Origin: Verrucomicrobiia bacterium
Lineage (GTDB): Bacteria; Verrucomicrobiota; Verrucomicrobiia; Verrucomicrobiales; DEV007
Reading direction: 5' to 3'
NCBI GenBank assembly: GCA_030427505.1
Contig: JAUICH010000024.1
Coordinates: 1 to 64,000 of the forward strand
DNA: 64,000 bases
The position numbers and the translations under genes are program-made. Under the pieces are notes generated by a model. That model was not told the DNA's origin. It saw only the letters and a program-made list of their open reading frames with translations, and did no database searches. Below, piece by piece: positions 1 to 26,385 of the stretch. Numbering within the stretch: position 1 is the stretch's first letter; every line of letters begins with the position of its first letter.

Positions 1-2529
1 TGACGCCATCATCATCCGTGTCCCGGTCGTTCGGATCGGTGCCATAAACAACCGTCTCGGCATAGTCGCTCAAACCATCCCCGTCGCTATCCACGTTCGT
101 GCCTGGCGAGGCGGCATCCAGCGGATCGGTGCCCAGCGTTTTGACTTCGTACCCGTCGGTATAGCCGTCATCATCACTGTCCGGGTCGCCGGCGTCCGTG
201 CCATAGAGCCACTCCTCACCCCGCGTCAGGCCATCGCCATCCGCATCAGTCACTCCGTCGGCTACCGATGTTCCATCCAGGCCAGCGCCGTTTTCGTATC
301 CATCGCTCAACAGATCCCGGTCGGTGTCATACACGGTCGGATCGGTATAGATCGGCGGCGGACTTGTGCCATACGAAGACCCGTAGGAAGAACCATAGGT
401 GGCGCTGTAGGTGGCCCCATAAGAAGAACCGTAGGTCGTCCCATAGGTGGGCGGGTCGTAATACTCCGGTTCGTCCGAATCGCTCCGTCCGTCTCCGTCC
501 GAATCACTCCGGTATACCAGCGTGGCAAAACCGTTGGAGCCATTGATCTCGCCCGAATCGCCCACCCCGTCACCATCCGTATCGGTGGAGGTGGGGTTCC
601 CGCCCTTGCGGTATTCGGTCAGGTTGTCCACCCCATCCATGTCGTAGTCGTCACCTGGCTGATAGTAGTAGCCATAGGAGGACCCGTAAGAACCGGAGTA
701 GCTGGGGCTGTATGTCGAGCCATAGGAAGACCCGTAGGTCGCGCCATACGTGGGCGGTTCCCAACCCACGGCATCATCCCCCAGATAGAGCCGCTCCCAC
801 CAGTCCGGCATCTCGTCGCTGTCTGTGTCTTCCCAGTCAACTCCGACAAACTTCACCGCGTCCAGCGTCACCAGGCCGGAAGTGCCTTCGTTGGAGATTT
901 CCACATAGTGCTCGCTGTCGGCGGGATCGAGCAGGTAGGTGCCCACGTAGACCCACTGGTTGTCCGCGGACTGCTGGTCGAAGCTCAGCGAGTCCACTTC
1001 ATTGGTGCCCGTCTCAGGATCTTCATAACCGACATCCACCGGCACCGCCGGGGCGCGATCCGTATCCGCCGACCACTTCAGGTAGAGTTCGTAGGTGCCC
1101 ACGTTCGGCTCCGTGGGCGTGGCCGGCGGGAGGGTAAAGCGAATCGACTTCTGGCCCTTGTCCGCGTCTCCGTCGTCTAGGTAGTCATCCTCCAGGTAGC
1201 CTTCAGCCGATTGCGTATTCCAGGTACCGGTGATCGCCGCCGATGGAGCCGTTACCGGGTCCAGGGTAATGACATGGTGCGTGACGGCAAACGAACGATC
1301 CATCAAAAGATCGGAGAAGGCCGCTTCCGTGCCCGTGCCCCTGTCTCCCGAGGCATGCGCCGCGCCCGCGAAGGCCGTCACCGCCAGCGGCAGATCCACT
1401 CCGGTCACCACATTCCAGTGCGTCCCGAACTGAGAATAATAAACGAAGATGCTGTTCCCTTCCCGGACCAGACGGAACCAGCCGTCCGGATCGTACCCCG
1501 GCAGGGCGAAAGACTCCGTATCGCCACCAGCAACGCGCCGCCAGCTCAAGACCACATCGTCATTCTCATCAACCCCGAAGAAGACATTCGGCGCGTCCGC
1601 CCGCAAGCTACCGCGAATCATCACCCCGGCTGAGCCTCCCGGCACGGACAGTGACGCATCCGCGTCGAGGCGGCCCGTGATGGCTCCCTTATCGAGGAGC
1701 GATTTCTGATAAAAAGCAAACCCATCCCAAACGCCGCTCATGCCGGTGCCCGAAGAGGTAAGATTCAACTCGCCCGTGGACTCGATGGCGGCGCTGCCAC
1801 CGTTTTCTGTCCCCACTCCCACCAAGCCCCACTTCTGGCTACTGATCCGGTTCGTACTCGTGTTGTCCGGGCTGACCACATACACCTCGAATTCGCCCGT
1901 TTCGGCGGTGAGTCCGTGGGACTTCAGCGCTTCCGCCTTCACCGTAAGAACAGTGCCCACCGCTTGATTGGCCGTGTAGCTGATTTCGTAGGGGGCCGTG
2001 GTATCCGGATCCCCATAGGCTTGGCCATTTACATAGAACTGCACATGCTCGATCGCGCCTCCATCCGGGTCGGAGGCATCCGCGGCCATCGTGAAAGACT
2101 GAAGGCGGACCACGGAGGAGACCGGCTCCGCCGGCGACGTTAGCGTCACGAGGGGCAATGCGTGGACATTCATCGTCACATTGGCCGAACCCAGATAGTT
2201 ACTACTGCTGTCCGTAAACTCCACCGAGCCCTCGTACTGGCCATTTTCCAGCACCGTGGCGTCGAGCAGGAAGTCCAGCGTCACGCTGGCTCCAGCGGCC
2301 AGGGTGCCACTCGCCGGGCTCACGTCCAGCCACTGGTGATCGCCACCCGCCACCGGAGTGAGGTGATTCGTCAGGGTAACCACATAGTCCAGGGAAACGC
2401 CGGTGTAATTCGTGAACTCCACCTCGACGGTCTCCAGTTGGCCCGCGCCCACGCTTTCCACCACGGAGGTGTCCGGGTAGTCGCCCGCGTCGGTGGGCGA
2501 GGTACCGGCCGCCACTTCGTGACTGTCAA
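1..2529 (-). repeat. Tandem coding unit 1 (2,529 bp)
   Basis: Boundaries are arbitrary, set at the recurring TGACGCC anchor. The unit is a whole number of codons (843). Tyr/Ser/Gly tracts lie near 367-462 and 664-756. It resembles unit 3 far more than its neighbour unit 2, and its first 190 bases match unit 4. Confidence 0.9.
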
Positions 2530-5500
2530 TGACGCCGTCACCATCCGTGTCCCGGTTGTTGGGATTCGAGCCGTAGACCTCGGTCTCCACAAAGTCCGGC
2601 AGGCCGTCCCCGTCGGTATCCGTCACCGTGCCCGGATCGGCGCCGTCAGTGGGATCGGTCCCCAGAAGCTTAGCCTCGAAGCCGTCTTCATAGGTATCGT
2701 CGTCGCTGTCGGTGTCGTTGATCGCGGTTCCATAGTGCCACTCTTCACCCCGCGTCAGGCCGTCGCCGTCCGTGTCGGTCACGCCGTCGGCGGCCAAGGT
2801 TCCATCCAGGCCGGCGCCGTTTTCGTATCCGTCGCTCAAGAGATCCCGATCAGTATCATACACCGTGGGATCGGTATAGATCGGCGGCGGATTCGAACCG
2901 TAGGAGGAAGTGTAGGAGGGACTATAGGTGGAGCTATAGGTAGCACCGTATGACGAACCATAGGTCGGCGGGTCGAAGTACTCCGGCTCTTCCGAGTCGC
3001 TCAGCGAGTCACCGTCGGTATCGCTCCGGTTCACCAAAGTGGCGTATCCGTTGGATGCAAAGATCTCCCCAGCATCCCCCACGCCGTCTCCATCCGTGTC
3101 GGTGGAGGTGGGGTTGCCGCCTTTCTGATATTCGGTCAGGTTGTCCACCCCATCCATGTCATAGTCATCTCCCGGCTGGTAGTAGTAGCCGTAGGTCGAG
3201 CCGTAAGACGCCGAATACGTGGCGCCGTAGGAGGAACCATACGAGGAGCCGTAGCTGGCCCCGTAGGTGGGCGTCTCCCAACCGACAGCGTCATCGCCCA
3301 AGTAGAGCCGTTCCCACCAGTCGGCCATTCCGTCGTCATCGGTATCTTCCCAGTCGATGCCGAGGAACTTCACCGCGTCCAGCGTGACGGGATCGATGGT
3401 GCCGGCATTGGAGATCTCCACGTAGTGTTCTGTATCCGACGGGTCCATCCGGTAGGTACCCACGTAGATCCACTGGTTGTCATGATCCTGTTGATCGAAG
3501 TACCGCACTTCCACCACGTTGGTGTTCGTGTCAGGATCTTCGTAGCCGATCTCCACCGGCACGTCCCAGGCATAGGTGTTGTTGCCCGCCCATTTGATGT
3601 ACACTTCGTAGAGCCCCACGTTTGGCTCCGAGGCAGTCACCGGTGGCAGCATGACGCGGATGGACTTCTGGCCTTTGCCCTCGGCTTCGTCGTCCAGATA
3701 ATCGTCATTCAAATAGCCTGGGACCGATTGCGTCGCCCAATCCCCGGTAATCGTGGCGGAGGGCGAGGTCACCGGATCTATGGTGATGGCCCGGTGGTTC
3801 ACGCCATAGGAACGGTCCAGTTGCAGGTCTCTGACGGTTCCCGTGGTGGTGGTATAGTCCCGGTACCCCCCACTATGGGCGGCTCCCACGTAGGCGGCGG
3901 TGGGCAGCGGCAGGTCCACGCCGAACTTAGCCGTCCAGTGGGTGCCATAGGGAGAATAGTAGACCAGCACGGTATTCCCCTCCCGGACCAGACGGAACCA
4001 GCCGTCTCCGTCACAGCCGGATAACTCATGGCGCTCCGTGGCCCCGCCCGCCTCGCGGCGCCAACTCACCTCCACATCCCCAAACCGGTCGACTCCGACG
4101 AACAGGTTCGCGGCATCTCCCCGCAGGCCGGCGCGGATCATCAGGCCAGTGCCGCCTTTGGGTCCGATGGAGCCCGTCGTCCCACCCATGCGGCCCGTGA
4201 TCGACCCCTTGTTCAGCAGGGTCTTGTGATAGAAGACCAACCCGTCCCAATCCCCTTCCATCCCGATGGCCGTGTCGGAACCGAGCACCAAATCGCCCGA
4301 AGGCTGAATGGTGGCGCTGGCATCCTCTACCACGCCGACCCCGGCCAAGCCCCAGTTCTGACTGCTGATCCGGCTGGGATTCGTATCGTCCGGAATGATG
4401 ACGTGCACCACGGCTTCGTCAGATTCCGCCGTGAGTCCATAGGCTTTCAGCACCTCCGCTTTGACGGTAAGCACCGACCCCGCCGGTTCGCTGGCCTGGT
4501 AACTGACTTCATAAGGCGCGGCGGTATCCGGAGCGCCGTAGGCCTGGCCGTTCACGTAGAACTGCACATGCTCTATGGCGCCACCATCGGGATCTGAAGC
4601 GTCCGCGGCCAAGGTGAACGACTGACCGGTCACCACCGTGGAAACCGGCTCCGTGGGAGCGGTCAGGCTCACCACCGGCAACGCGTGAACGTGCATCGTC
4701 ACCGCCACCTGGCCAAGGTAGTTACCCCCGCCATCATTGAAGGTGACTGAGCCGTCGTACTGACCGTTCGCCAGCACGGAAGCGTCCAACTCAAAGTCCA
4801 AGGTCACGCTGCTACCCGCGCCGATGGTGCCCGCGGTGGGAGTGACCGTGAGCCACTGGTGGTCTCCGCCCGTGACGGGCGTGAGCTCGCCACTCAAGGT
4901 GGCGATATAGTCCACCGATCCGCCAACATAGTTGGCAAACTCGACCTGAATCGTCTGAACCGTGCCCACCCCAACGTGTTCCACGACCGAGGTATCCGGG
5001 TAGTCGCCCGCGTCGTTAGGATCGGTCCCGGCCGCCACTTCGTGACTGTCAATCACGCCATCATCATCAGTGTCCCGGTCATTCGGATCGGTCCCGTAAA
5101 CGAGGTTCTCTTCATAGTCCGTCAGGCCATCGCCATCGGTATCGACATCCATGCCCGGATCGTTCGGGTTCATTGGGTCCGAGCTCAGTTGCTTGACCTC
5201 GTATCCGTCTTCGTAACCGTCCCCGTCGCTGTCGGCGTTTGCGATGCCGGTTCCGTAGATCCACTCCTCACCCCGCGTCAGCCCGTCATTGTCCGCGTCA
5301 TCCGTTCCGTCAGCCGCGGCGGAGCCATCCAACCCCTGGCTGTCTTCATAGCCATCGTTCAATAGATCGCGATCGGTATCCCACACCGAAGGATCAGTGT
5401 AGATGGGCGAAGGGTTCGAGCCATAGGTGGCTCCGTAGGAGGACCCATACGAAGCCCCATAGGTGGCGCCGTAGGTGGGCTCATAGGTAGGACTGTAGGT

Positions 5501-8500
5501 CGCTCCATAGGTCGGCGGATCGTAGTACTCCGGCTCTTCCGAATCGCTCAGCCCGTCGCCGTCCGTGTCGCTCCGGTACACCAGGGTCGCAAAACCATTG
5601 GAGGCAAAGATCTCCCCAGCATCCCCCACGCCGTCTCCATCCGTGTCGGTGGAGGTGGGGTTCCCGCCTTTCTGGTATTCGGTCAGGTTGTCCACCCCAT
5701 CCAAGTCGTAGTCGTCACCTGGCTGATAGTAGTAGCCATAGGAGGAGCCGTAAGTACTGGCGTAGCTGGGGCTGTAGGTTGAACCATAGGACGACGCATA
5801 CGTAGGCGGCTCCCACCCCACGGCTTCATTTCCCAGGTAGAGACGCTCCCACCAGTCCGGCATCTTGTCATCGTCCGTGTCTTCCCAGTCAACCCCCACG
5901 AACTTCACGGCGTCCAAGGTCACCAGACCGGAAGTGCCTTCGTTGGAGATTTCCACATAGTGTTCGCTGTCGGCGGGATCGAGCAGGTAGGTCCCCACGT
6001 AGACCCATTGGTTATCGCTCGACTGCTGGTCGAAGCTCAACGAGTCCACTTCATTGGTGCCCGTGTCAGGATCTTCATAACCGACATCCACCGGCACTGC
6101 CGTGGCGCGATCCGTGTCCGCTGACCACTTCAGGTAAAGTTCGTAGGTGCCCACGTTCGGCTCCGTGGCCATGGCTGGCGGGAGCGTGAGCCGAATCGAC
6201 TTCTGACCCTTGTCAGCGTTTCCGTCGTCCAAGTAGTCGTTGTCCAGATACCCGGGAACAGTTTGCGTGTTCCAGGAACCAGTAACCGCCGCCGACGGAG
6301 CCGTCACCGGGTCCAGCGTAATGATGTGGTGCGTGACGGAAAAAGAGCGGTCCAGGAGGAGATCGGAGAAGGCCGTTTCCGTGCCCGTGCCACTGTCTCC
6401 CGAGGCATGCGCCGCGCCCGCGAAGGCCGTTACCGGTAGCGGCAGATCCACTCCAGTCACCGCTGTCCAGTGCGTCCCAAATTGAGAATAGTAAACGAAG
6501 ATACTGTTCCCTTCCCTAACGAGGCGGAACCAGCCATCCGGGTCATACCCCGGCAAGGTGAAGGACTCGGTGTCGCCACCGGTGACGCGCCGCCAGCTCA
6601 GGACGACTTCATCACTTTCATCAACCCCCAGGAAAACGTTTGGCGCGTCCGCCCGCAAACCGCCGCGAATCATCACCCCAGCCGATCCTCCCGGCACGGA
6701 CAGCGATGCATCCGCGTCCAGGCGGCCCGTGATGGCGCCCTTATCAAGGAGCGATTTCTGGTAAAAGACAAACCCATCCCAATCATCGCCAATACCGATA
6801 CCTGAAGAGGTAAGATTCAACTCGCCAGTGGACTCGATGGCGGCGCTGCCGCCAGTTTCGGCGCCCACTTCCACCGCGCCCCATTTCTGACTGCTGATCC
6901 GGTTGACGTTCGTGTTGTCCGAGTTGATCACGTAGACCAGAGCCTCATCCGTTTCGGCGGTGAGCCCGTGGGACTTCAGCGCTTCCGCTTTTACCGTCAG
7001 GATGGTGCCCGCCAATTGATTGGCCGTGTAGCTGATCTCATACGGAGCCGTGGTGTCTGGCGCTCCGTAGGGCTGACCATTCACGTAAAACTGCACGTGT
7101 TCGATCGCGCCCCCATCCGGGTCGGAAGCATCCGCCGCCATCGTGAAGGATTGGAGACGTATCACGGAAGAGGCTGACTCCGCTGGCGCCGTCAGCGTCA
7201 CCAGAGGCAAAGCATACACCTCCATGGTCACGCTGGCCGCCCCCAGATAGTTCCCGCTGCTGTCGGTGAACTCCACCGAGCCCTCGTACTGGCCATTTTC
7301 CAGCACCGTGGCATCGAGCAGGAAGTCCAGCGTCACGCTGGCCCCGGCGGCCAAGGTGCCGCTCGCCGGGCTCACGTCCAGCCACTGGTGATCGCCACCC
7401 GTCACCGGGGTGAGGTGATCCGTCAGGGTGACCACGTAGTCCAGAGATACGCCGGTGTAGTTCGTGAACTCCACCTCGACCGTCTCCGCGTCCCCCGCGC
7501 CCACGCTTTCCACCACGGAGGTGTCCGGGTAGTCACCCGCGTCGGTGGGCGAGGTGCCCGCCGCCACTTCGTGACTGTCGATGACGCCATCATCATCCGT
7601 GTCCCTGTCGTTCGGATCGGAGCCATAGATCACGGTCTCGGCATAGTCGCTCAAACCATCCCCGTCGCTATCCACGTTCGTGCCTGGCGAGGCGGCATCC
7701 AGCGGATCGGTGCCCAGCGTTTTGACTTCGTACCCGTCGGTATAGCCGTCATCATCACTGTCCGGGTCGCTCGCATCCGTGCCATAGATCAGTTCTTCCC
7801 CCCGGGTCAAGCCGTCGCCATCCGCGTCATCCGAGCCGTCGGCGCTGTCGGAGCCGTCCAGGCCCTGAGAGTCTTCGTAACCGTCACTCAGAAGATCCCG
7901 GTCCGTATCCCACATGATGGGATTTGTATAGATCGGGGGCGGAGTCGAATCGTAAGTGGAACCATAGCTCGATCCGTAGGTGGAACTATACGTCGAGCCA
8001 TAGGTGGCGCCGTAGGTCATTCCGTATGTGGGTGGATCGTAGTACTCCGGTTCCTCGGAATCGCTCCGGCCGTCTCCGTCGGAATCGCTCTTAAAGACCG
8101 TGGTCTTGTAGCCATTGGACCCGTTAATCTCTCCGGCATCCCCTACCCCGTCTCCATCGGTATCGGTGGAAGTGGGGTTCCCGCCCTTGCGGTATTCGGT
8201 GAGATTGTTCACCCCATCCTGATCGTAATCATCACCCGGCTGATAGTAATACCCATAGGAGGATCCATAAGACGAACTATAGGTGGAACCATACGACGAG
8301 CCGTAGCTGGACCCATAGGTAGGCGGCTCCCAACCCACGGCCTCGCTACCCAGGTAGAGCCGCTCCCACCAGTCCGCCATTTCGTCATTGTCGCTGTCCT
8401 CCCAGGACACGCCCACGAACTTCACCGCGTCCAGAGTGACCAGACCCGTGGTGCCAGTGTTAGAGATCTCCACATAGTGACCGGTGTCGGACGGATCCAT

Positions 8501-11500
8501 TTGGTAGGTGCCCGCGTAGACCCACTGATTGTCCGCGCCCTGTTGATCGAAGCTCAATTGCTCGACTTGATCTCCGGCACTGCCTTCGCCCCGATAGCCG
8601 ATGTCCACCGGCACCGAATCGGCGCGGTCCGTATCCGCCGACCATTTCAGATACACTTCGTAATAGCCCACGTTGGGCTGCGTGGCCGTCACCGGCGGCA
8701 GGTTGAAACGGATGGACTTCTGGCCCTTGTCCGCGTTCCCGTCATCCAGGTAGTCGCCGTCCAGATAACCCGCGGCCGATTGAGTCGTCCAGCTTCCCGT
8801 GAGCGTGGCGGAGGGAGACGTAATCGGATCCAACGTGACTGGCAGGTGCGTGACGCCATAGGAGCGGTCCAGAAGCAGATCGGAGAAGGCGGCATCCGTC
8901 ACCACCCCACGGGCGTTCGAGCTATGTACCGCCCCAGCGTAGGCCACCGCCCCCAGGGGCAGGTCCACGCCCAGCAGCGGCTCCCAATTCGTGCCGTAGC
9001 GCGCGTAATAGACAAACACGCTGTCTCCATACCGCGCCAGACGGAACCACCCTTCGGGATCGCAACCTGGAAGGACAGAGGACTCTGTCGGACCGCCCGC
9101 CTCACGACGCCAGCTCAGCACCACGTCGCCACTTCCATCCGTGCCCACAAAGACGTTGGCCGCTTCGGCATGCAGGCTGCCGCGAATCATCAGCCCCGTG
9201 CTGCCGCCGGGCGCGCTCAGCGCGGCGTCCGCATCCAGGCGGCCAGTGATGGCGCCCGTATCCAGAAGGGTCTTCTGATAAAACGCAAATCCATCCCAAA
9301 CGTCACCGATGCCGGTGCCGGCGGACACCAGAGTCAGTTCGCCGCTGCTTTCGATGGTGGCGCCTCCGCCGGTTTCCGTGCCCACTTCCACCAGCCCCCA
9401 GTATTGACCGCTGATGCGGGTGGCACTGGTATTGTCGGGAATGATGACGTGCACCAAGGCCTCGCTGGTCTCGGAAAAAATGTTGTCCGGCTTCACCGCT
9501 TTCGCCTTCACCGTGATCGACGAACCCGCCGGTTGGCTGGCCGTATAGTTGACCGAATACGGCGCCGTGGTGTCTGGGGCCCCATAGGCTTGGCCGTTCA
9601 CGTAGAACTGCACATGCTGGACGGAACCGCCATCCGGATCGGTCGCCGTCGCCGTCAGCGGCAGGACATGGCCGGTCGCCACCGTGGACTCCGGCTCCGC
9701 CGGGGAGGTCAGCGTCACCACTGGCGCCTGGCTGACCTGCATGGTTGCCGCGATCTGCGCCACGTAGCCACCTCCTCCGTCGGTAATGGTGACCGTCCCC
9801 TGGAAGGTGCCCGAAGTCAGAGCCGCGGCATCCAGCGTAAAGCTCAGTGTGGTAGTACCACCCTGCGCCACCGTGCCTGTCGCCGGCGCCACGTTCAACC
9901 ACTGGTGATCCCCACCAGTCACCGGCGTCAGGTGCCCGGAAAGGGTGGCCGTGTAGTTCAGGGCCGCTCCTAGATAGTTGACGAGATTGACCGGCAGCAC
10001 CTCCACCGTGCCCGCTTCCACGATCTCCGTGACCGAGCTGTCCATGTAGTCGTTCCCATCGGTGGGCGATGTGCCCTGCGCGACTTCCTGCCCGTCAATG
10101 ACCCCATCGTCATCCGTGTCCCTGTCGTACGGATCCGTGCCATAATTGGTGGTTTCCAGGTAATCGTTCAGACCGTCCCCATCACTGTCCCCGGTCAGGG
10201 AGGGACTGGTGGGATCGTTAGGATCGGTCCCAGTGGACTTCACCTCCAGGCCGTCCCCGTAGGTGTCGTCATCGCTGTCGCTGTCGGAAACGTCTGTGCC
10301 GTAGATCACTTCCTCGCCCAGCGTCAGGGTGTCCGAGTCTCCGTCCACTATCCCGTCACTGCCATCCGAACCATCCAGACCATTGGTATCTTCGTAGCCA
10401 TCCCCCAGCAGGTCCGCGTCCGTGTCAAACATCGTGGGGTCGGTATAAATCGGCGGTGGCGAAGAAGAATAGGAAGGCTCGTAAGAACTCCCATAACTGG
10501 CGCCGTAGCTCGATCCATAGGAACTCCCATAGGTATAGGTGTAGCTGGACCCATAAGAACTTCCGTAGGTATAGGTATAGCTCATCCCATACGTCGGGCC
10601 ATAGGTGGGCGAGTCGTAGGTTTCAGGCTCTTCGGAGTCGGATAGGCCGTCCCCGTCCGTATCCGCCTCGGCCAGGTTGGTGTAGTAGCCGTTGGTGCCG
10701 TAGTACTCTCCGTAGTCGCTCACCCCGTCCCCATCGGTGTCTCCAGTGGTGGGATTGCCGCCCGCGTAAAACTCGTCGCCATTACTCACGCCGTCGTAGT
10801 CGTAGTCGTCCCCAGACCCGTAGTAGTAACCGTAGCTGAAGCCATAGGACCCGGTGTAAGACGAAGTGTAGGATGAGGAATACGTCGATCCGTAGGACGA
10901 GCCATACGAAGACCCGTAGGACGAACCGTAAGAAGAGCCATAGCTCGAACCGTAGGAAGACGAGCCCGTGTCCACCGCGTCTTCGCCAAAGTAAAGCCGC
11001 TCCCACCAGTCGGGCATGCCATCATTGTCCACGTCCTCCCAGGACACACCCACGAACTTCACCGCGTCCAGCGTTACCCGGCCCGTCACGCCGTCATTGG
11101 AGATCTCCACGTAGTGGCTGGAGTTCGCCGGATCCATCGTGTAGGTGCCCGCATAGACCCACTGGTTGTCGGCCTCCCGCTGGTTGAAACTCAGCATGTC
11201 CACCTGGTTGCTCCCGGTGCTGTCGTTGGCATAGCCCACGTCCACCGGCACCGCGTCGTCCCGGTCGGTTCCCGCCGACCATTTCAGGTAAACCTCGTAA
11301 AGACCCACGTTCGGCTCCGTGGACTGCGCTGGCGGCAGCGACACCCTGATCGACTTCTGCCCCTGACCGGAAACTCCATCGTCTAAGTAGTTGTCACCCA
11401 GGTAACCAGCCACGTTCTGAGTCGTCCACTCACCCGTAACCACCGCCGAAGGCGACGATACCGGATCCACCGTCACATCATGGCGACGATAACCAAATGA

Positions 11501-12187
11501 ACGGTCCAGTTGCACAACATCGAACTGTGTTTCGGTCGTCACGGAGGTGTCTCCCGAAGAGTGCGCCGCCCCCGCGTAGGCCGGAACGGTCAGCGGCAGG
11601 TCCACCCCTAACAGAGGCGCCCATATGCTTCCATTCGTGGAGTGATACACCAACACGGTGTCGCCACTCCTTACCAGCCGGTACCAGTCTTCCGCGTCAC
11701 AGCCCGGTAGATCGAAGACTTGGGTCGTCCCTCCAGCCGTCCTTCTCCAGCTCAGAAACACCTCGCCGGAGGTGTCACTTCCCATGAACACATTGGCCGC
11801 ATCCCCTCTCAGGTTGGCCCTGATCATGATCCCAGCAACCCCGCCAGGACTTGATAGTGTCGCAGTTGCATCAAGCCTGCCCGTAACGGCGCCCTGATCC
11901 AGAATTGTCTTATGATAAAAGGTAAACCCGTCCCACTCTCCCCCGATGCCGGATCCCGAAGACTCCAGCAACAGCGTTCCTCCGCTGGAGTTGTAAGTAG
12001 CCGTCGAGCCACTCTCCACCCCCACCTTCGCCAGTCCCCACTTGGGATTCGCGGGATTTACCGTGGCCACTGCCATCGACCAGAGACTCAGGCAAACAGC
12101 CGTCATCACGATCCCGCCAACCAGCCAGAAATAGCGGGGGACCAAGCCTCGCCCCGCTCCGCATAACCATTTTTTGGCTCGCAGCAT
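1..12187 (-). CDS. Giant exported tandem-repeat protein, C-terminus beyond window
   Basis: One frame stays open from ATG at 12187 to base 1 (about 4,062 codons), so the protein is partial here. The N-terminus has a signal peptide: basic MLRAKKW, a hydrophobic core near residues 19-40, a probable cut after SMAVA. Each unit of about 840 residues carries, in order, a DUF1349/concanavalin-like module ([19 protein letters not shown]), a golvesin-C-like module (GQKSIRF, YLKWSAD, HYVEIS), a WWERLY linker, a Tyr/Ser/Gly tract, DTDGDGVGD-type thrombospondin-3 calcium repeats, a second Tyr/Ser/Gly tract, more calcium repeats, a BACON-like sandwich (HQWL) and an Ig-like module ([16 protein letters not shown]). 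Frame continuity is supported by the long antisense shadow frames, which all share one phase. ATG 12187 is the only canonical start after the upstream in-frame stop near 12251. Role unknown; a calcium-stabilised cell-surface or matrix protein is an inference. No catalytic motif seen. Confidence 0.9.
2530..5052 (-). repeat. Tandem coding unit 2 (2,523 bp)
   Basis: Second copy from the left, 841 codons. Tyr/Ser/Gly tracts lie near 2885-2970 and 3176-3276. The middle (about 3361-4620) is clearly more diverged from units 1 and 3 than those are from each other. Confidence 0.9.
5053..7581 (-). repeat. Tandem coding unit 3 (2,529 bp)
   Basis: 843 codons, the same length as unit 1. Tyr/Ser/Gly tracts lie near 5412-5520 and 5730-5815. 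Over 841-1160 versus 5893-6212 it differs from unit 1 by only roughly one base in twelve, judged by eye. Confidence 0.9.
7582..10098 (-). repeat. Tandem coding unit 4 (2,517 bp)
   Basis: 839 codons. Tyr/Ser/Gly tracts lie near 7948-8040 and 8243-8330. Bases 7635-7770 are identical to 54-189 in unit 1. The rest is more diverged. Confidence 0.9.
10099..12187 (-). repeat. N-terminal partial unit with signal peptide
   Basis: First unit of the giant protein. It lacks the BACON-like and Ig-like modules, which start only with the next unit, and begins with the signal peptide followed directly by the concanavalin-like module. Its two Tyr/Ser/Gly tracts (about 10452-10610 and 10816-10966) are the longest in the window, with pairs such as SYGSSYGS repeated many times and a YTYTYGSS variant. 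Confidence 0.85.
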
Positions 12188-12420: not shown

Positions 12421-13410
12421 ATGAAAGTGAAATTCTCCTCTCTCCCGTGGCGGTGCCTGCTGCCCGCCCTCCTGCTCTGCGCCTGCGCTGACAGCGAAGA
12501 AGACGCCTCAAACGGCCGCGTGCGCGTCGAGGAAGTCCGCCCCACCCGCCCTTCGGCGGATGCCACTTCCGCCCGGCTGTTCCGCCTGATAAGGGACAGC
12601 GAGATCGCTCTTACCTTCCAGGCCCCCGGCGAGGATAAAAAGACCCGCCTCACCTTTCCCAGGTTCTCCGGCGAACTCCATGCCACCGAGGACGGTGTCG
12701 CCAAGTCCGCCCACCGCGCGGTCATCGACACGCGTTCTCTCAAGGCCACGGACGCGGACCTGACCAGTTTCCTCCAGTCCTCAGACGGCTTCGCGCCTGA
12801 CAAGACACCCACCGCGCTCCTCTTCGTGGAAACACTTGGCGAGCCCGGGGCCGATGGCCAGCGGGAGGCGGCCGGGTTCGTCGGATTTCGCGGCATCCGC
12901 TACCCCGTGACCTTTCCCGCCTCGACCACGCTGGAAGGAGATCTCCTCACTTTCAATGGCGCAGCGACAGTGACCCTGCAGGAAGAAGATGACGCGGGCT
13001 CCACCGCCACGCTCCGCCAGCACGTCGGCGACGAGCTCATCTTTGAGTTCTCCCTCGTCGCTAAGGAAGACACCAGCGCCCGTCCCCGGCCCAACGTATC
13101 GCCCTCTCCCGCGGGGCGGAAAAAAGAGGATCGGCCCGCCAGCGACTCCGCCAACAAGGACAAAGCCATCGAGCCCACCAAGCATGTGGCCGAGCGCCAG
13201 AACTCCGAGGCCCGCGTCGCGGCCCTCTTCACACGGCTCGACTCCAACCGGGACCAATCCATTTCCGCCGATGAAGCCGGGGAGAACGCTTGGAAACTCC
13301 TGTCCGGTTTCGATGCCAACAACGACGGCACGCTCAACTCCAAGGAGCTCGAAAATCAACGTATCCCGGTCATTCCATCCCCCCGTCCTCAAGCTGCCGC
13401 CGCCCCCTGA
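12421..13410 (+). CDS. Lipoprotein with YceI-like domain and EF-hand pair
   Basis: 329 residues. A signal peptide ends at a probable lipobox (LLCAC, Cys22), so the protein should be membrane-anchored. Residues about 48-190 resemble the YceI fold: IDTRSLKATDADL, an SSDGF step, and RGIRYPVTFPA near the end of the domain. After a charged, Pro/Lys-rich linker come two EF-hand loops, DSNRDQSISADE and DANNDGTLNSKE, each with correctly spaced acidic ligands. It is divergent from the giant calcium-repeat protein, separated by 233 bases that should hold both promoters. YceI proteins bind lipids or isoprenoids; the ligand here is unknown. The EF-hands suggest a calcium-dependent role near the surface, which is inference. 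Confidence 0.8.
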   Translation: MKVKFSSLPWRCLLPALLLCACADSEEDASNGRVRVEEVRPTRPSADATSARLFRLIRDSEIALTFQAPGEDKKTRLTFPRFSGELHATEDGVAKSAHRAVIDTRSLKATDADLTSFLQSSDGFAPDKTPTALLFVETLGEPGADGQREAAGFVGFRGIRYPVTFPASTTLEGDLLTFNGAATVTLQEEDDAGSTATLRQHVGDELIFEFSLVAKEDTSARPRPNVSPSPAGRKKEDRPASDSANKDKAIEPTKHVAERQNSEARVAALFTRLDSNRDQSISADEAGENAWKLLSGFDANNDGTLNSKELENQRIPVIPSPRPQAAAAP

Positions 13411-13456: not shown

Positions 13457-14380
13457 TCAAGTAGGCGTGGCGGCGGACTTCCGCCACACCGCCAGCGGTC
13501 TTAGCAGGGACTGCGCTTTGGCTTTCATCCAGTCCAGCTCCTTCACGGAGAGGAACAGCGTTAAATAAGACAGGAGTTGCGCCATGAAATAAGTGAGGTC
13601 GTTCATCGTCGTGGCGATGAACAGGACAAAACCCAGCCCCCCGGCCAGGCCGATGCGCCGCGTCCACGGCAGCACCAGTAGCAGCGGTCCCACCAGTTCG
13701 AAGCCCAACGCCAGATACTGCAACACCGTCCAGCACCACATGGGCGCCACCATCAGCAGCCAGGACGCTAACTCGTTTCGATAGAGTCCCTGCGACTGCG
13801 ACCAGATGACGTCCTGGAAGTTCATCCAGTTCCCGTGCAGTACCTTCGACATGCCCGCCGTGAAAATCTGGAGCAGGATCGTCGCCTGTAGCGTCCTGAC
13901 CGGCCAGGCGGACGACAGCACGGCGTGTCCTCCCGGCTCCGCCGCCGGCCGGATCGGGGGCGCCAGGAACAGAATCAGGAAGCCCGCGATGTAGTGATGG
14001 TTCAGCGCGAAGGAACCCAGCGGATCCGCGCCATGAATATAGACCGCCACGCCAAAGAGCACCCCCAGCCCAGCCCGGCTGAACTTTCCGGCCAACACCA
14101 GGAGTCCCGCGGCCAGCGTCACTACCCCCAGCAACAGGGCGGCCCAGGGTTCCAGCAGAGCATACGGTTCCGGGAGATACGTCCAGTGAACCCGCCGTGA
14201 AAAATGGTACCCTTCCGGTGTCAACCATTCCCGGTACTGCACGAACCTCGCCACGAAAAAATAGTAGAGAAAAGATGCCGTAAAGGCCTTTTCAAACACC
14301 TTCAGCCTCGCCGCTTCTATCGGGCCGGTCCAGAACCTTCCTAACCACTTAAATGGTTTCATCAGCCAATGTCCCGTCAT
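13457..14380 (-). CDS. HTTM-domain (gamma-carboxylase-like) membrane protein
   Basis: 307 residues with multiple hydrophobic spans. The pattern fits HTTM proteins, a family related to vitamin K-dependent gamma-glutamyl carboxylase: RFVQYREWLTPEGYHFS near the N-terminus, HGADPLGSFALNHHY, and GMSKVLHGNWMNFQDV followed by a long hydrophobic C-terminal half. Bacterial HTTM proteins are mostly uncharacterised, and I do not see the soluble lumenal domain of true carboxylases, so carboxylation is not claimed. The ATG overlaps the stop of the upstream gene by 4 bases (ATGA), so the two are translationally coupled. Confidence 0.75.
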   Translation of the reverse strand: MTGHWLMKPFKWLGRFWTGPIEAARLKVFEKAFTASFLYYFFVARFVQYREWLTPEGYHFSRRVHWTYLPEPYALLEPWAALLLGVVTLAAGLLVLAGKFSRAGLGVLFGVAVYIHGADPLGSFALNHHYIAGFLILFLAPPIRPAAEPGGHAVLSSAWPVRTLQATILLQIFTAGMSKVLHGNWMNFQDVIWSQSQGLYRNELASWLLMVAPMWCWTVLQYLALGFELVGPLLLVLPWTRRIGLAGGLGFVLFIATTMNDLTYFMAQLLSYLTLFLSVKELDWMKAKAQSLLRPLAVWRKSAATPT

Positions 14381-15012
14381 GATCCCGGTTCCTTTCTGTC
14401 CATTTCGACATCGTCCGCCTCACTGACCAGGCCTTCCTGCTCGCCCTCGTGATAGAACTTGTAGCTGTTCACCACCACCCTCATCCCTTCCGGCACCTCC
14501 GCCAGTGGCGGGATCTGCCAGTGTTCCCGCGTCTGGGTCAGCTCTCGCGAGCCCGACCGGTAGCGCACCCGCACGTAGCGCATCTCCGTTACCCGTCCCG
14601 CTTCCGGATGTAGCGCTTCGTGCTTCTTCTTGATAAACAACGCCAGGTCCCGCATGACCGCGGGCCGGGCCGGATCTCCTCCCCCCTGCCCCAGCGCCCG
14701 GTACGCCCGTGTCGCATACCCAAACGGACGCATCGGAGAAATGTCCCCATCCGGAACGTCGACCCAGGCATCTCCCCCCTCCTCAGTCTTTACCTGGTAG
14801 TAGTAGTTATCCCAATAAGGAATGCGCCGGATAAACAACGCGGACACCCGCCAGAGGTGATTCAAATACCGCCCTCCCTGCGGAGAATCTTTTCCTGTGA
14901 TACCGGTGTATGCCAGCGGCATCACCCAGTAGACCAGGAAAAACAACGCCAGCGCATAGTGAAGCCAACGAATCGCTTCTGCTTTTTTTCGATTCACGAA
15001 ACCAGATGTCAT
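14377..15012 (-). CDS. Single-span partner of the HTTM protein
   Basis: 211 residues from ATG 15012 (MTSGFVNRKKAEAIRW). The frame stays open to 15402, but that extension runs into the divergent gene at 15281 and is not protein-like. After one transmembrane segment (WLHYALALFFLVYWVMPLAY, about residues 17-36) comes an extracytoplasmic domain with paired Trp/Tyr, YWDNYYYQ, a VRVRYRSGSRELTQTREHW strand pair and an acidic end. The gene overlaps the HTTM gene by 4 bases. Small membrane proteins of this form often sit beside bacterial HTTM genes; a shared complex is inference. Confidence 0.7.
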   Translation of the reverse strand: MTSGFVNRKKAEAIRWLHYALALFFLVYWVMPLAYTGITGKDSPQGGRYLNHLWRVSALFIRRIPYWDNYYYQVKTEEGGDAWVDVPDGDISPMRPFGYATRAYRALGQGGGDPARPAVMRDLALFIKKKHEALHPEAGRVTEMRYVRVRYRSGSRELTQTREHWQIPPLAEVPEGMRVVVNSYKFYHEGEQEGLVSEADDVEMDRKEPGS

Positions 15013-15280
15013 GGGGATTTCCGAAGCCCAGCCTCCCATAACCACCAAGCTCTTTTCAATCAAAACCTTTCTCTTTCGTTTTCGCCAATTCCCAGGAAAG
15101 GCAAGAGCCCGTGGGAATTGATTCCAACATAAGGGCTGGGAACCAGCCTCAACCAGTCCCCGTTTTTCCACAACCGGGGCAGGCTCATCGGGTTGACTCA
15201 ACGGAACCTTCGGGGCCAATGTCAAAACCCTGAGCACAGTCCGACGGCTCGCCCTCCTAAAAAACTCCGCCCCGCAATCC

Positions 15281-17368
15281 ATGAATCGCCTTTTTATCTC
15301 GACCGGTTTTCTCCTCCTGACCTCCGTCTCTTTCTCCGCCGAATCTGCCGTCGCCGTTGACGCCGCCGCCTCTTCTCCGCCCACCGTTCCGGACCTCCCC
15401 ATCCTCGACTCTCCCGGCTGGGGCCCCTGTATGGACGCCGTCGTTCAAGGGGATCACCTCTTCGCCATTGGCAGAGGAAAGCTCTACACTGCGGACATCT
15501 CCGATCCAGAGAAGCCCCGCCTTCTGGGTACCTTGTCGGGACTGGGCAACACCCGCCAACTCGTGGTCGGAAAGGGCGTCGCCTATGTCTCCGCCCGCGA
15601 AGACGGCTTGTTCGTCGTGGACGTCCAAGACCCCACCAAACCTGCCCTTCTCAACCACTACGACACCATCGAACTCGCCACCGGGCTCGACCTCGCTGGC
15701 GACGTTCTCTTCATCGCTCAGCGTCACTATGGCGTCGAGCAGGTGGACGTTTCAGATCCCCGCCAGCCCCGCCACCTCAGTTCCATCCGCACGGGCGAAG
15801 CTCAGTCCATTGCCTACCACGATGGCTACCTCTACACCGGTGTCTGGGGCACTTCGGAAATCGTCACCCTCGACATGACCGATGCCCGCTCACCCAAGAT
15901 CCTGTCCAAGGTTCCCCTCGATGGCTACGGCGACGGCGTCACCGTCCACGGTGGCTACCTCTACGCCGCCACCGGTCATCACTCCCGCGCACCCCACGCC
16001 GCGGAGGGCGACCCCGGTTACGGCCACGGACACGGTCTGGAAATCTTCGACCTTTCCGATCCCGCCAAACCTTCCTTCGTCAGCCGCGTCAAGTTCCCGC
16101 CCTTCTACGGCATCGGAAATGACATGTGGAGTGTTTCCGTCGTAAATGGCCACGCCTTTGTCGCCGACACGCACAACGGCATCTTCGTCGTCGATGTCCG
16201 GGATCCCCAGCATCCCAGTATCGTGGGACGCAGTCATCTTCCCGTGCCCACTGGGAAAGACGTTCCCGCTTTCTACGGTGGCCTGGCCGTGGGCGATGGT
16301 GTCATCTACGGCGCGGGCGGCTGGACGGACCTTCATGTTCTCGCCGCCCCAGGGCTTGCTTCCCCCGTTGCCTCCGGAAACGGAACTCCTCCCACCATCC
16401 GCCCAGTGGTCGAATCTCAAAACGAACGCATCCTCTCCTCCTACCACCCCCAGGGCCAGGTCCATGCCGTCGCCCCCGTGGAGGATCTCCCCCTGGCCGT
16501 TGCCGCCTGCGGCAGCGCCGGACTCCACGTCATCCGCCTCACGGAAGACTCCATCCAGCCCGTCTCCGTTACCGCTACCACCGGCTTCGCCACTGACGTC
16601 TGTCTCCTTGGCCACACCGTCTATGCCGCCGAAGGCACCGGCGGTCTCTCCATTTGGGAACTCTCCCCCGATGGTCGGCTTACAAAGCAAAGCGCCTACC
16701 AGGTGCCCGGCCGCGGCATCCGCTTCGTCGCCGTCCCCGCTCCCGGAAAATACGCCCTCGTCGAAGTAGGCGCCGGTCAACTCCACATCGTCGATGTCTC
16801 AGACCCCACACAGCCCAGCCTCACCCTGCAAGATTCCCACCTCGGTCTCTTCTACGGCTACCAACTCCTCGATAGCCTCGTCGACGGCCGCTATACCGCC
16901 GCCTTCTGGCACGTCGATGGCATTCATTGGTACGACCTCTCCACCCATCCGCCCCGCCTTGAAGGCGCCCACCCCGCCGGCCGCTTCGGCATGGCCGAAG
17001 GCCTCGTCCGGCTCGGCGAGAGCCATGGCCAGAAACTCCTCGCCCCCTACAGAGGCGGCCTCATCAGCTTCGACTTCGAAGAGACCCGCCCCATCACCGA
17101 ACTTCCCATCCACCGGATCGAAGGCGTCCACCTGCGCGGCAAACCCACGCTCGACGAAACCCGCCATCACCTCTACCTGGCCGACCGCGTCCTCGGCGGC
17201 ATCACCATCCTAAACCTCACCACCCCTGACAACCCCGCCGTCCTCGACTCCTTCACCACCCCCGGCAACCCCGGCCGCATCGCCCCCCTCAAGAACGGCT
17301 ACCTCCTCCCCAACGGAAACCAGGGCCTTTTTCTGCTCGCTCCTCCTGAGGCTGAATCCGCCAGGTAA
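15281..17368 (+). CDS. Secreted LVIVD-repeat beta-propeller protein
   Basis: 695 residues with a signal peptide (LFISTGFLLLTSVSFSA). The body is a run of LVIVD-type repeats: ADISDPEKPRLLGTL, VDVQDPTKPALL, VDVSDPRQPRHLSS, LDMTDARSPKILS, FDLSDPAKPSFVS, VDVRDPQHPSIVG, then VDVSDPTQPSL and LTTPDNPAVLDS further on. These form beta-propeller blades, probably two propellers given the length and the break near residues 365-385. LVIVD proteins are surface or periplasmic and generally uncharacterised. It ends 7 bases before the convergent gene at 17375. No catalytic residues recognised. Confidence 0.85.
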   Translation: MNRLFISTGFLLLTSVSFSAESAVAVDAAASSPPTVPDLPILDSPGWGPCMDAVVQGDHLFAIGRGKLYTADISDPEKPRLLGTLSGLGNTRQLVVGKGVAYVSAREDGLFVVDVQDPTKPALLNHYDTIELATGLDLAGDVLFIAQRHYGVEQVDVSDPRQPRHLSSIRTGEAQSIAYHDGYLYTGVWGTSEIVTLDMTDARSPKILSKVPLDGYGDGVTVHGGYLYAATGHHSRAPHAAEGDPGYGHGHGLEIFDLSDPAKPSFVSRVKFPPFYGIGNDMWSVSVVNGHAFVADTHNGIFVVDVRDPQHPSIVGRSHLPVPTGKDVPAFYGGLAVGDGVIYGAGGWTDLHVLAAPGLASPVASGNGTPPTIRPVVESQNERILSSYHPQGQVHAVAPVEDLPLAVAACGSAGLHVIRLTEDSIQPVSVTATTGFATDVCLLGHTVYAAEGTGGLSIWELSPDGRLTKQSAYQVPGRGIRFVAVPAPGKYALVEVGAGQLHIVDVSDPTQPSLTLQDSHLGLFYGYQLLDSLVDGRYTAAFWHVDGIHWYDLSTHPPRLEGAHPAGRFGMAEGLVRLGESHGQKLLAPYRGGLISFDFEETRPITELPIHRIEGVHLRGKPTLDETRHHLYLADRVLGGITILNLTTPDNPAVLDSFTTPGNPGRIAPLKNGYLLPNGNQGLFLLAPPEAESAR

Positions 17369-19632: not shown

Positions 19633-21456
19633 TCAGGCCTCTGCTTCCGTGCCCTTCCCTCCCTTTACTGCGGCCGAGGCCAGTTCCGGATATTTCGCCT
19701 CCGCCACGGAAATGCACTTGGCCTCCACCTCAGCAGTGGTCGAAACCTTCAGGAGGTCTTCCATGAAGGCCTTGCACTCTTCAGTGTCCAGCCGGGACAC
19801 CGCGCGCCGCACGCGCAGCAGTTGGACGGCGCCCACACTCAGCTCGTCGATTTCCAGGCCCACGAAGATGGGCGTGAATAGCAGATCCGCCGCGGCCTCC
19901 CCACAAACCCCCACCCAGATGCCATTCCGGTGCGCGGCTTCCACTACCGTCTTCAGAAACCGGATGATCGCCGGGTGATAGGGCTGGTACAGGCCGGCCA
20001 CCCGTTCGTTGACCCGGTCAACCGCGATGGTGTACTGGATCAAGTCATTGGTGCCGATGCTGAAGAAATCCACCTCTCTGGCCAATTCGTCCGCCAGCAG
20101 CACGGCGCTGGGAATCTCGATCATGACGCCCACCTCCATCTCTTCGTCAAAGGGCACATCCTTTTCCCTCAGTTCCTGCCGGGCCTCTTCCAGCAGCTCA
20201 TTGGCCCGCCGCAGCTCCTCCAGGGAAGAGACGAAAGGATACATCAGCCGGACTTTCCCCTCCGCGCTCGCGCGGAGAACCGCCCGGAGCTGCGTCTTGA
20301 AGAGTTTCGGCGACTCCAGGGAAACCCGGATGCCCCGCAGCCCCAGAAAGGGGTTCGGCTCGGGCTCGTCAAACAGCTCCGGCCAGATCTTGTCCCCCCC
20401 GATGTCCAGCGTCCGGATGATGACACCGTGCGGATTCACCGCCCGCGCGGCCTGGGCATAGTTCCGGGCCTGGCGGCGTTCGCTCCGCAGATCTTCCTCG
20501 TTCAGGTAGAAAAACTCCGTCCGGTAGAGCCCCACGCCTTCCGCGCCCTGCTTCTGAATCTGCGGAATCTCGTGAGTGAACTCAATATTCGCGGAAAGGA
20601 TAATCCGGCGCCCGTCCGCGGTCCGGGTCTCCTCGTCCCGTAGCGTTTCCAGGCCTTTTAGGATCTCGGACTCCCGGGCCTTAAACTGGTCGTACTCCGC
20701 CAGGGTCGCCACGGACGGCCGCACGATGGCCAGGCCGCTGTACCCGTCCAAGAGCAGGTCGTCGCCGTTTTCGACCACCTTCCTCAGGCCGTGCAGGCCA
20801 ACCACGGCCGGGACGTTCAGCGAACGCGCCAGGATGGCCGCGTGAGAGGTGGCACTGCCGACCTCCGTCGCGAATCCCTTCACCCGCTCCCGGTCAATGG
20901 TCACGGTATCCGACGGCACCAAGTCGTGCGCCACCAGGATCAGTTGATCGTGGTCCCGCACCTCTTCCTCGGTTTCGTCCGCGATGGGCACGGGAATCAG
21001 GTTCCTCAGCACCCGCCGGGCCACGTCCTCGATGTCGATCGCCCGCTCCCTCAGGTAGGGGTCCGGAATCCTCCGCAGGGAGGTTATGTAGTGCTGAATG
21101 ACCTCATAGTAGACCCGGTCCACGTTCCGGTGCTCGGTCTCCAGCAGCCGGATCACCTCATCGATCACCGCCGCGTCTTCCAGAACCAGCAGGTGGGCAT
21201 CAAAAATGCTGGCGTGTTCCCGGCTGGAGCCCCCTTCCTCCAGTTCCTCCTGCATGTTGCGGATCTGTTCCCGCGTCCGTCCCAGTGCTTCGCGAAAGCG
21301 CAGCTTCTCCCGTTCCACGGCCTTGGACCCCACATACCAGGACAGAGGGGCCACCAGGGTATCCACACTCAGGCGCACCCGGCCACGAGCGATCCCCGGA
21401 GAAACGGCGATCCCTTCAATACGTTGTTCCTGAGTCGCTTCGGCTGAGTCGGCCAT
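19633..21456 (-). CDS. ptsI: PTS enzyme I
   Basis: 607 residues, slightly longer than the usual 570-580. Phosphoenolpyruvate-protein phosphotransferase takes phosphate from PEP on a histidine and passes it to HPr in the cytoplasm. The N-terminal HPr-binding domain is followed by the swivelling phosphohistidine motif GSATSHAAILARSLNVPAVVG (His205), then the PEP-binding TIM barrel with RTEFFYLNE, GGDKIWPELFDEPEPNPFLGLRGIR and SIGTNDLIQYTIAVDR. The conserved CGE of the C-terminus is present. It is the last gene of the lpt-hpf-hprK-ptsH-ptsI run, 110 bases after ptsH. No sugar permease (EIIABC) lies nearby, which suggests a regulatory rather than transport role. Confidence 0.95.
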   Translation of the reverse strand: MADSAEATQEQRIEGIAVSPGIARGRVRLSVDTLVAPLSWYVGSKAVEREKLRFREALGRTREQIRNMQEELEEGGSSREHASIFDAHLLVLEDAAVIDEVIRLLETEHRNVDRVYYEVIQHYITSLRRIPDPYLRERAIDIEDVARRVLRNLIPVPIADETEEEVRDHDQLILVAHDLVPSDTVTIDRERVKGFATEVGSATSHAAILARSLNVPAVVGLHGLRKVVENGDDLLLDGYSGLAIVRPSVATLAEYDQFKARESEILKGLETLRDEETRTADGRRIILSANIEFTHEIPQIQKQGAEGVGLYRTEFFYLNEEDLRSERRQARNYAQAARAVNPHGVIIRTLDIGGDKIWPELFDEPEPNPFLGLRGIRVSLESPKLFKTQLRAVLRASAEGKVRLMYPFVSSLEELRRANELLEEARQELREKDVPFDEEMEVGVMIEIPSAVLLADELAREVDFFSIGTNDLIQYTIAVDRVNERVAGLYQPYHPAIIRFLKTVVEAAHRNGIWVGVCGEAAADLLFTPIFVGLEIDELSVGAVQLLRVRRAVSRLDTEECKAFMEDLLKVSTTAEVEAKCISVAEAKYPELASAAVKGGKGTEAEA

Positions 21457-21566
21457 TTACAAAATCAGACAGAGGCCCATCACGGGACCGGCAAGTGGTC
21501 TGGTAACGGGCTTCCCGATACCACAACATTCCCCCCTTAGACAGCCCAATCTTCCGTGCCGTTGGA

Positions 21567-21836
21567 TCAGGGCTCTTCCTGAAACCCGTTCTGAATCAGG
21601 ACGCCAATACTTTCCAGAGCCTGAACTTCGTCCTCTCCGTCGGCGGAAACGCTTACCGTGGAGCCGCATTCCGCGGCCAGCATCATCAAGCCCATGATGG
21701 ATTTCCCATTCACCTGCTCGCCGTCTTTTCCAACCCAAATCTTGCTCTTGAAGCGATTCGACGTCTTCACGAACATAGCCGCGGGCCGCGCGTGCAGGCC
21801 CTGCTTGTTGATGATCGTGTACTGCTGTTCGAGCAT
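21567..21836 (-). CDS. ptsH: HPr phosphocarrier protein
   Basis: 89 residues. The start at 21836 (MLEQQYTI) is chosen over the upstream ATG at 21866 because it places the phosphorylated histidine at residue 15 (KQGLHARPA) and the kinase-target serine at residue 46 (VNGKSIMGL), the canonical numbers for HPr. His15 accepts phosphate from enzyme I; Ser46 is the target of HprK, whose gene is directly upstream. Both sites are intact, so the HPr can integrate both signals. Length and fold order are normal. Confidence 0.95.
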   Translation of the reverse strand: MLEQQYTIINKQGLHARPAAMFVKTSNRFKSKIWVGKDGEQVNGKSIMGLMMLAAECGSTVSVSADGEDEVQALESIGVLIQNGFQEEP

Positions 21837-21896
21837 GGGTCTTTCGGGAATCTTTACAATGCCCAAGGCGTTGGCAAGTTCCGAGCCAATTCCTGC

Positions 21897-22865: not shown

Positions 22866-22950
22866 TCCGGGCGCTTTCAGGATTGCCGGGTCAGTCGTTG
22901 GGGGCCGCGCCGGGAAAGCCGGCCCCTCACTTCCGCCCGGTGCGGTCCGC

Positions 22951-23538: not shown

Positions 23539-23677
23539 AATCTTCTACTGTTTAATTACGAACAAAAAATCCAGCGTGACTCCCTTAAAATAACGGAGTT
23601 CGGAACTTCCATCAGGGCTGGTTCCGCCGCCCTGACGGCCGCGCTGAGAAAAAATTGCCGGGGGGTTTGCGCAGGCA

Positions 23678-26373: not shown

Positions 26374-26385
26374 CGCACATTAGCA

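Follow-up and report, generated by a model that had tools for sequence, protein, structure and literature searches.

Periodic tyrosine tracts at fixed joints between TSP3 repeats in a giant protein of a verrucomicrobial bacterium

Introduction

Fibrillar adhesin-like proteins, as outlined in PMC8286594, are secreted and carry repeated stalk-type domains together with a putative binding module. A giant extracellular protein of about 6,000 residues has been described in Menyafoubacter, a PVC bacterium (PMC12057145), and giant proteins of other organisms are the subject of two further papers (PMC12863079 and PMC11573180), the accessible parts of which do not mention tracts of Tyr-containing tetrads. 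Giant surface proteins that bear TSP3 repeats form a known, little-studied kind. Here we describe such a gene at the edge of a 64,000-nucleotide stretch of DNA, hereafter the window, from a Verrucomicrobiia bacterium (GenBank assembly GCA_030427505.1, contig JAUICH010000024.1, positions 1 to 64,000). The encoded protein consists of large repeated units whose TSP3 arrays are interrupted by tracts with Tyr at every fourth residue. We propose, with about even confidence, that it is a secreted, calcium-stiffened, multivalent glycan-binding fibre of the cell surface or matrix, and that the Tyr tracts mediate its self-association or cross-linking.

Results

Tyrosine recurs in strict register at two joints of every TSP3 array

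The gene lies on the minus strand, where a frame that begins with the ATG at 12187 contains no stop in 4,062 codons and is cut by the contig edge at window base 1 (Table 1). The sequence-only reading of this DNA had claimed one unbroken frame of at least 4,060 residues and had named stop codons or frameshifts as the findings that would overturn the claim; on translation, the frame is open throughout. Units begin at residues 50, 930, 1769, 2612, and 3453, which gives four complete units of 880, 839, 843, and 841 residues and a fifth that is cut at 610 residues. Every complete unit has the same order of modules, namely, a concanavalin-like module, Golvesin_C, a TSP3 array, BACON_2, and a Big_7 immunoglobulin-like (Ig) domain, and whole units are 63 to 75% identical to unit 2. 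The regularity of 839 to 843 codons noted earlier holds for units 2 to 4, whereas unit 1 exceeds it, chiefly because its Tyr tracts are longer. Unit 1 had also been thought to lack the BACON and Ig modules. These are found at about residues 702 to 929, the discrepancy depending on where units are cut; what stands is that the signal-peptide-like start directly precedes the lectin-like module.

That account of the modules omitted the most distinctive feature of the units, ten tracts of the form [S/T]-Y-x-x in which Tyr occupies each fourth residue (an example is [25 protein letters not shown]). Every TSP3 array is interrupted twice by such tracts at fixed places, once after a WWERLY motif and once after an (S)EEPE motif, both between TSP3 repeats. 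The ten window tracts were analyzed together with four from an ortholog in another genus, described below, and all were bounded by flanking landmarks and not by the Tyr residues themselves. Tyr fills all 125 in-register positions (82/82 in the window gene and 43/43 in the ortholog), and all 97 that remain once the 28 tract ends, necessarily Tyr, are set aside. In no tract region did more than 20 of 20,000 shuffles match the observed register count. The number of Tyr residues per tract varies, from 6 to 12 in the window gene versus 9 to 13 in the ortholog.

Codon usage argues that this register is kept by selection on the peptide, and not by DNA slippage, because Tyr is invariant while TAT and TAC each account for about half of its codons (37 TAT to 35 TAC in the window gene; 19 to 20 in the ortholog). 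The first two positions of the Tyr codon have zero entropy and the third has 1.00 bit, against an amino acid entropy of 0; a purine at the third base gives a stop, so that part of the limit there is trivial. The 72 tetrads of the window gene comprise 67 distinct 12-mers (33 among 39 in the ortholog), and no neighboring tetrads are identical in DNA (0/62 and 0/35, respectively). A simple or young DNA minisatellite was rejected on the window gene's 12-mers and neighboring tetrads together with the mixed third base of its Tyr codons. A related explanation is that the tracts are mere flexible spacers between rigid TSP3 segments and that their periodicity is what remains of a 12-base DNA repeat that once expanded. 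The tracts are indeed of low complexity and variable in length, and 12-base DNA repeats are common (58 stretches on viral contigs, for example, some of which read in other frames as peptides with Tyr at a period of four). We nevertheless consider this explanation unlikely, given the divergence of adjacent tetrads and the evenly mixed third base, even with the partly trivial purine limit, and given that the register persists in the ortholog although other tract residues have largely changed.

Ser or Thr immediately precedes Tyr in 67 of the 72 window tetrads and in 38 of the 39 ortholog tetrads. After Tyr, the window gene has mostly Gly at +1 and mostly Ser, Ala, Pro, or Tyr at +2. This richness in Ser and Thr would also suit modification sites, at which Ser/Thr or Tyr would bear O-glycans, phosphate, or sulphate and so form a decorated, hydrated coat. 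Such a role seems improbable to us, since it is Tyr that is invariant and the preceding Ser/Thr is not quite so; moreover, among the 29 neighboring frames scanned, the only kinase is an HPr kinase and no glycosyltransferase was seen, although such enzymes may lie elsewhere.

An ortholog in another genus keeps the joints and the locus

A profile of the TSP3-plus-tract region was searched against 74 genomes of the family. Matches at an E value of 1e-12 were obtained in 33 of them, and the sole strong match beyond the window's own genome was in G433, which belongs to another genus (255.9 bits; the next, in G013, scored 103.6). The G433 ortholog is complete, with 3,237 residues from the chosen start: two units are followed by a 1,448-residue C-terminal part that holds further TSP3 repeats and a final HEIGHAAGGGD...GLMG segment. 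Its four tracts occupy the same two joints in both units, with a composition shifted mostly to YSPS and YTPS and with YGSS largely drifted.

The locus is shared as well. Three flanking genes are kept in order and orientation beside the ortholog, at 44%, 53%, and 28% identity, the last value being that of the YceI-like divergent neighbor (window 12421 to 13410) and its relative on the ortholog side. The membrane-protein-like neighbor is present in 6 of the 74 family genomes; in the four of these besides G000 and G433, the 5 to 16 kb read from each holds the second neighbor as well and gave no match to the YceI-like or giant gene. In a tree of the lectin-like and golvesin modules, units cluster by species with 100 and 99 support, and they have therefore multiplied, or were homogenized, separately in each. 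Some copies within the window gene are mosaic: units 3 and 5 are 87 to 90% identical in the lectin-like and golvesin modules, and units 2 and 4 are 92% identical in BACON.

The C terminus of the ortholog raises a further alternative, a secreted degradative or enzyme-targeting protein in which the repeated units would bind glycans and so bring a catalytic domain at the C terminus to its target. The HEIGHAAGGGD...GLMG segment resembles what we take to be a metzincin-type zinc site with a Met-turn, and the lectin-like module also resembles carbohydrate-active enzymes. However, the segment matched nothing in Pfam or, by sequence, in the PDB; the last 914 residues of the ortholog had no match in the window's genome at an E value of 0.01, an empty answer that shows little; and five units seem to exceed the needs of targeting. 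We regard this alternative as distinctly improbable and favor a fibre.

The tracts and the unit appear rare in the genomes searched

A DNA pattern for Y-G-[ST]-[ST] twice followed by Y, whose W-S-N also covers a few additional codons, has 14 occurrences in the window's genome, always inside the giant gene. The pattern was found in 0 of 56 relatives (reversed control, 5/57) and, across 386 further genomes from the phylum, in one (reversed control, 6/387); that single match, in G403, was discarded on the ground that it falls in a 35-residue frame. G433 lies outside both sets and the pattern misses tracts of the YSPS type, so these counts understate the kind. Among 971 frames of at least 250 residues in 311 loci, which are small parts of most genomes, tracts with at least five Tyr residues were confined to the gene of the window, its G433 ortholog, and eight loci on viral contigs.

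In those eight loci (L134, L143, L147, L151, L153, L162, L164, and L179), the contigs carry 12-base repeats, and the longer open frames of these read as YVEP or YQQP repeats, which are further tracts with Tyr at a period of four. The frames in which the pattern matched on viral contigs have at most 174 residues, and on this basis the matches were rejected as relatives. By eye, the TSP3 relatives L094 (G013) and L088 (G434), near the contig start, have irregular Tyr-rich inserts immediately preceding the motif found after the second tract; these inserts may show tract precursors.

A phylum-wide profile search at an E value of 1e-25 matched one genome of 387, the window's own, G433 being outside the sample. 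A scan of genome contigs yielded 10 loci, with matches chiefly in the TSP3 region. None of 72,556 plasmid records encodes the unit; six match 13 to 18% of it, in the lectin-like part. In a limited literature collection, judged by titles and abstract openings, no description of such Tyr-tetrad tracts was found.

Domain matches point to a secreted calcium-binding repeat protein

The matches above the Pfam cutoff were to Golvesin_C (PF25275) in five stretches (209 bits; gathering score, 31.6), TSP3_bac (PF18884) in 13 stretches (132.4 bits; gathering score, 25), Big_7 and BACON_2 in four stretches each, and DUF1349 (PF07081) in the one stretch that passes alone (51 bits; gathering score, 32.4). 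Tandem copies of Big_7 (four) and BACON_2 (four) thus accompany a TSP3 array in each unit. The DUF1349 match of the ortholog is below the cutoff, at 15.1 bits. An AlphaFold model of the concanavalin-like module, made from the five window copies, had a pLDDT of 79.7; its top Foldseek matches were 3mep and 3o12 (E values of 1.7e-7 to 5e-7), and many glycan enzymes and lectins of the concanavalin A fold came lower. On this model, the first module has a concanavalin-like, lectin-like fold, and glycan binding is a putative function. Residues 1 to 42 have a basic start, a hydrophobic core, and AVA before T43, features that we interpret as those of a Sec signal peptide. With a pI of 4.05, the protein is very acidic, and each unit contains six to eight DxDxDG motifs.

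These features bear on the earlier suggestion of a long calcium-stabilized fibre, adhesin, or matrix protein. TSP3_bac, Big_7, Golvesin_C, and the signal-like start support a long calcium-binding extracellular repeat protein well, and the surface, adhesin, or matrix role is plausible by domain inference.

The gene is cut at a contig edge

The window begins at base 1 of its contig (C37 of a 6.4-Mb assembly in 56 contigs), and the giant gene is cut for that reason. By repeated k-mer counts, the longest exact internal repeat measures 136 bases (window about 54 to 189 versus 7635 to 7770) and lies at this edge; the first 150 bases of the window are 96% identical to 7582 to 7731. This repeat fits an assembler that halted inside it, so the concern about copy number in the sequence-only reading was fair at the edge. 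In the interior, by contrast, the copies have diverged: by blastn they average 64 to 75% identity, with one 58-base stretch at 84%, and k-mer counts gave zero exact repeats of 150 bases or more. Because the copies have diverged and every exact repeat is shorter than 150 bases, collapse within the visible gene is unlikely, short of read-level data. One might still suppose that the assembler duplicated or misjoined units, given that the gene's longest exact repeat sits at the end of the contig and that some modules are 84 to 92% identical between units. Such an artifact is hardly credible, as unit 2 differs from the others by 25 to 37% in protein, no exact repeat reaches 150 bases, and another genome has the same unit architecture, in two units, at the same locus.

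The 3' continuation of the gene was not found in the assembly. The 1,448-residue C-terminal part of the ortholog had zero matches in the window's genome at an E value of 1e-10, and its first 540 residues gave five short matches only, in the TSP3 stretch, four of them to the window gene. We surveyed 110 contig-end stretches of up to 2.5 kb, comprising all 56 starts together with 54 ends; the two shortest contigs were taken whole. Window bases 1 to 21 were found in none of these except that of the window's own contig, and no convincing incoming continuation frame was found among them (at 5 of the 110, the frames consisted of N alone). With composition correction switched off, the frame that blastp placed closest to the window protein was Gly/Asp-rich, at an E value of 4.9e-4. 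Separately, the ends of contigs C41, C48, and C55 (L241, L248, and L311) of this genome carry Gly/Asp-rich frames open across the full 2.5 kb, two of which start nearly identically; this suggests that the assembly was broken by a further family of giant repetitive genes.

Other genes in the window

Coordinates are collected in Table 1. The YceI-like neighbor with the weak EF-hand matches is a possible calcium-related partner. Farther along lie a cluster at 19633 to 27393 with genes for a PEP-utilising enzyme (PTS enzyme I-like), HPr kinase, an S30EA ribosomal protein, an ABC ATPase, an LptA-type protein, and a protein of the DAHP-synthase family; a 1,001-residue frame without a Pfam match at 45785 to 48790; and a respiratory cluster at 49372 to 62204 (SCO1/SenC, CtaA-like, COX1, COX3, a second COX1-family protein, and a FixO-like protein).

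Table 1. Positions of the giant gene, its modules and tyrosine tracts, and its conserved neighbors in the window
Feature	Position	Strand	Basis or remark
Giant protein, open frame	2..12187	-	at least 4,062 aa; 5' end intact, 3' end lost at contig edge
Signal-peptide-like N terminus, residues 1-42	12062..12187	-	read from translation
Unit 1 concanavalin-like (DUF1349-type) module	11468..12061	-	alignment to modelled copy; fold
Unit 1 Golvesin_C	11042..11476	-	Pfam, unit alignment
Unit 1 TSP3 array, two Tyr tracts	9947..11035	-	reference extends into BACON
Unit 1 Tyr tract A	10820..10954	-	45 aa
Unit 1 Tyr tract B	10469..10603	-	45 aa
Unit 1 BACON	9728..10084	-	Pfam
Unit 1 Big_7 Ig	9401..9727	-	Pfam
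Unit 2 concanavalin-like module	8828..9421	-	alignment, fold
Unit 2 Golvesin_C	8405..8839	-	Pfam
Unit 2 TSP3 array, two Tyr tracts	7481..8398	-	
Unit 2 Tyr tract A	8243..8317	-	25 aa
Unit 2 Tyr tract B	7952..8026	-	25 aa
Unit 2 BACON	7211..7567	-	Pfam
Unit 2 Big_7 Ig	6884..7210	-	Pfam
Unit 3 concanavalin-like module	6311..6904	-	alignment
Unit 3 Golvesin_C	5888..6322	-	Pfam
Unit 3 TSP3 array, two Tyr tracts	4958..5881	-	
Unit 3 Tyr tract A	5726..5800	-	25 aa
Unit 3 Tyr tract B	5423..5509	-	29 aa
Unit 3 BACON	4682..5038	-	Pfam
Unit 3 Big_7 Ig	4355..4681	-	Pfam
Unit 4 concanavalin-like module	3782..4375	-	alignment
Unit 4 Golvesin_C	3353..3787	-	Pfam
Unit 4 TSP3 array, two Tyr tracts	2432..3346	-	
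Unit 4 Tyr tract A	3179..3265	-	29 aa
Unit 4 Tyr tract B	2900..2962	-	21 aa
Unit 4 BACON	2159..2515	-	Pfam
Unit 4 Big_7 Ig	1832..2158	-	Pfam
Unit 5 concanavalin-like module	1259..1852	-	alignment
Unit 5 Golvesin_C	836..1270	-	Pfam
Unit 5 TSP3 array	2..829	-	cut by contig edge
Unit 5 Tyr tract A	662..748	-	29 aa
Unit 5 Tyr tract B	371..445	-	25 aa
Divergent neighbor, YceI-like domain (above cutoff), weak EF-hand matches (below cutoff)	12421..13410	+	Pfam
Conserved neighbor, membrane-protein-like by eye, no Pfam match	13457..14380	-	53% identical to ortholog's neighbor
Conserved neighbor, no Pfam match	14377..15402	-	44% identity over 170 aa to ortholog's neighbor

Discussion

In the fibre that we propose, five or more tandem units would each display two likely glycan-binding modules, the DUF1349-type module and Golvesin_C. 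The TSP3 array would serve as a calcium-stabilized rod, with BACON_2 and Big_7 as two Ig-like spacers, and the Tyr tracts at two fixed joints per unit would act as evenly spaced aromatic stickers. A period of four places all Tyr residues on one face of an extended strand. The tracts of neighboring fibres might then pair in a beta-like ladder or, alternatively, be joined covalently through dityrosine, and tracts paired or cross-linked in this way would gather the stiff calcium rods into bundles that form a network or coat. Reach and stickiness may evolve through repeat gain and loss, because unit number (at least five versus two) and tract length differ between the species.

Several observations weigh against this proposal. 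Strong tract-region matches came from only 2 of the 74 family genomes, the weaker matches having been read in part, so the element is not widespread. The C terminus of the ortholog (L086:14901-16001, HEIGHAAGGGD...GLMGAG) may mean that the protein is not purely structural. For both the DUF1349-type module and Golvesin_C, glycan binding is likely and still putative. The whole-unit model was poor (pLDDT, 46.6), with the tracts, in 10-residue blocks, at 22 to 27; much of the TSP3 array scores as low, so that the model is silent on tract structure. We identified neither an anchor nor a sorting signal or secretion partner, the 3' end of the gene being absent, and Pfam recognized no Tyr-oxidizing enzyme among the 29 neighboring frames, several of which lack a match and which cover one flank.

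The nearest comparisons include giant TSP3 proteins of the same bacterial family, for example those with open frames of 4,915 residues (G435), at least 1,939 residues (G447), and 5,555 residues (G468, known by length). Like the window protein, they combine TSP3 matches with very long frames, and those of G435 and G447 start with a sequence like a signal peptide and, judged by eye, carry a related module at the N terminus. Unlike it, the G435 and G447 proteins have no Tyr-tetrad tracts, and the giant gene and the conserved neighbor of G447 are on different contigs.

CglD and MtsD, which we take to be proteins of Myxococcus, weakly resemble the TSP3 arrays of both the window protein and the ortholog. 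NCBIfam names them for gliding motility and cell-cell cohesion (NF033765 and NF047639), and the window array matches part of each model, at 127.9 bits against a cutoff of 400 and at 58.9 bits against 800, far below membership in either case. With the fibrillar adhesin-like proteins of PMC8286594 the window protein shares probable secretion and tandem stalk-type domains, the latter a likeness set without that paper's own stalk list; it differs in repeating its putative binding modules in every unit instead of placing them at a single end. Neither DUF1349 nor TSP3 appears in the main text of that paper, and the window module is lectin-like by fold only. The Menyafoubacter protein (PMC12057145) shares a secretory signal peptide, the absence of a transmembrane helix, and carbohydrate-binding modules, with TSP3 named in the legend of its Fig. 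6; it differs in its beta-helix and polysaccharide-lyase modules, and the accessible text does not mention Tyr tracts.

Tyr tracts held in fixed register by selection, and set between repeats that bind calcium, would add a new structural element to bacterial fibres and would serve naturally as a model for materials that respond to calcium and oxidation. The ortholog pair offers a clean case of a giant gene gaining or losing repeat units at a single locus. In FUS-type prion-like domains and in mussel and silk proteins, Tyr residues are spaced by small polar residues in Ser/Gly-rich sequence. The window tracts can be likened to these by description; they are bacterial, probably extracellular, of strict period four, and set between folded calcium-binding repeats. 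We tentatively suggest, as a possibility that is itself doubtful, that strictly periodic [S/T]-Y-x-x ladders at fixed joints of a calcium rod are a built-in lateral adhesive whose Tyr spacing is under selection, a bacterial counterpart of the Tyr-based self-assembling or cross-linked structural proteins of eukaryotes.

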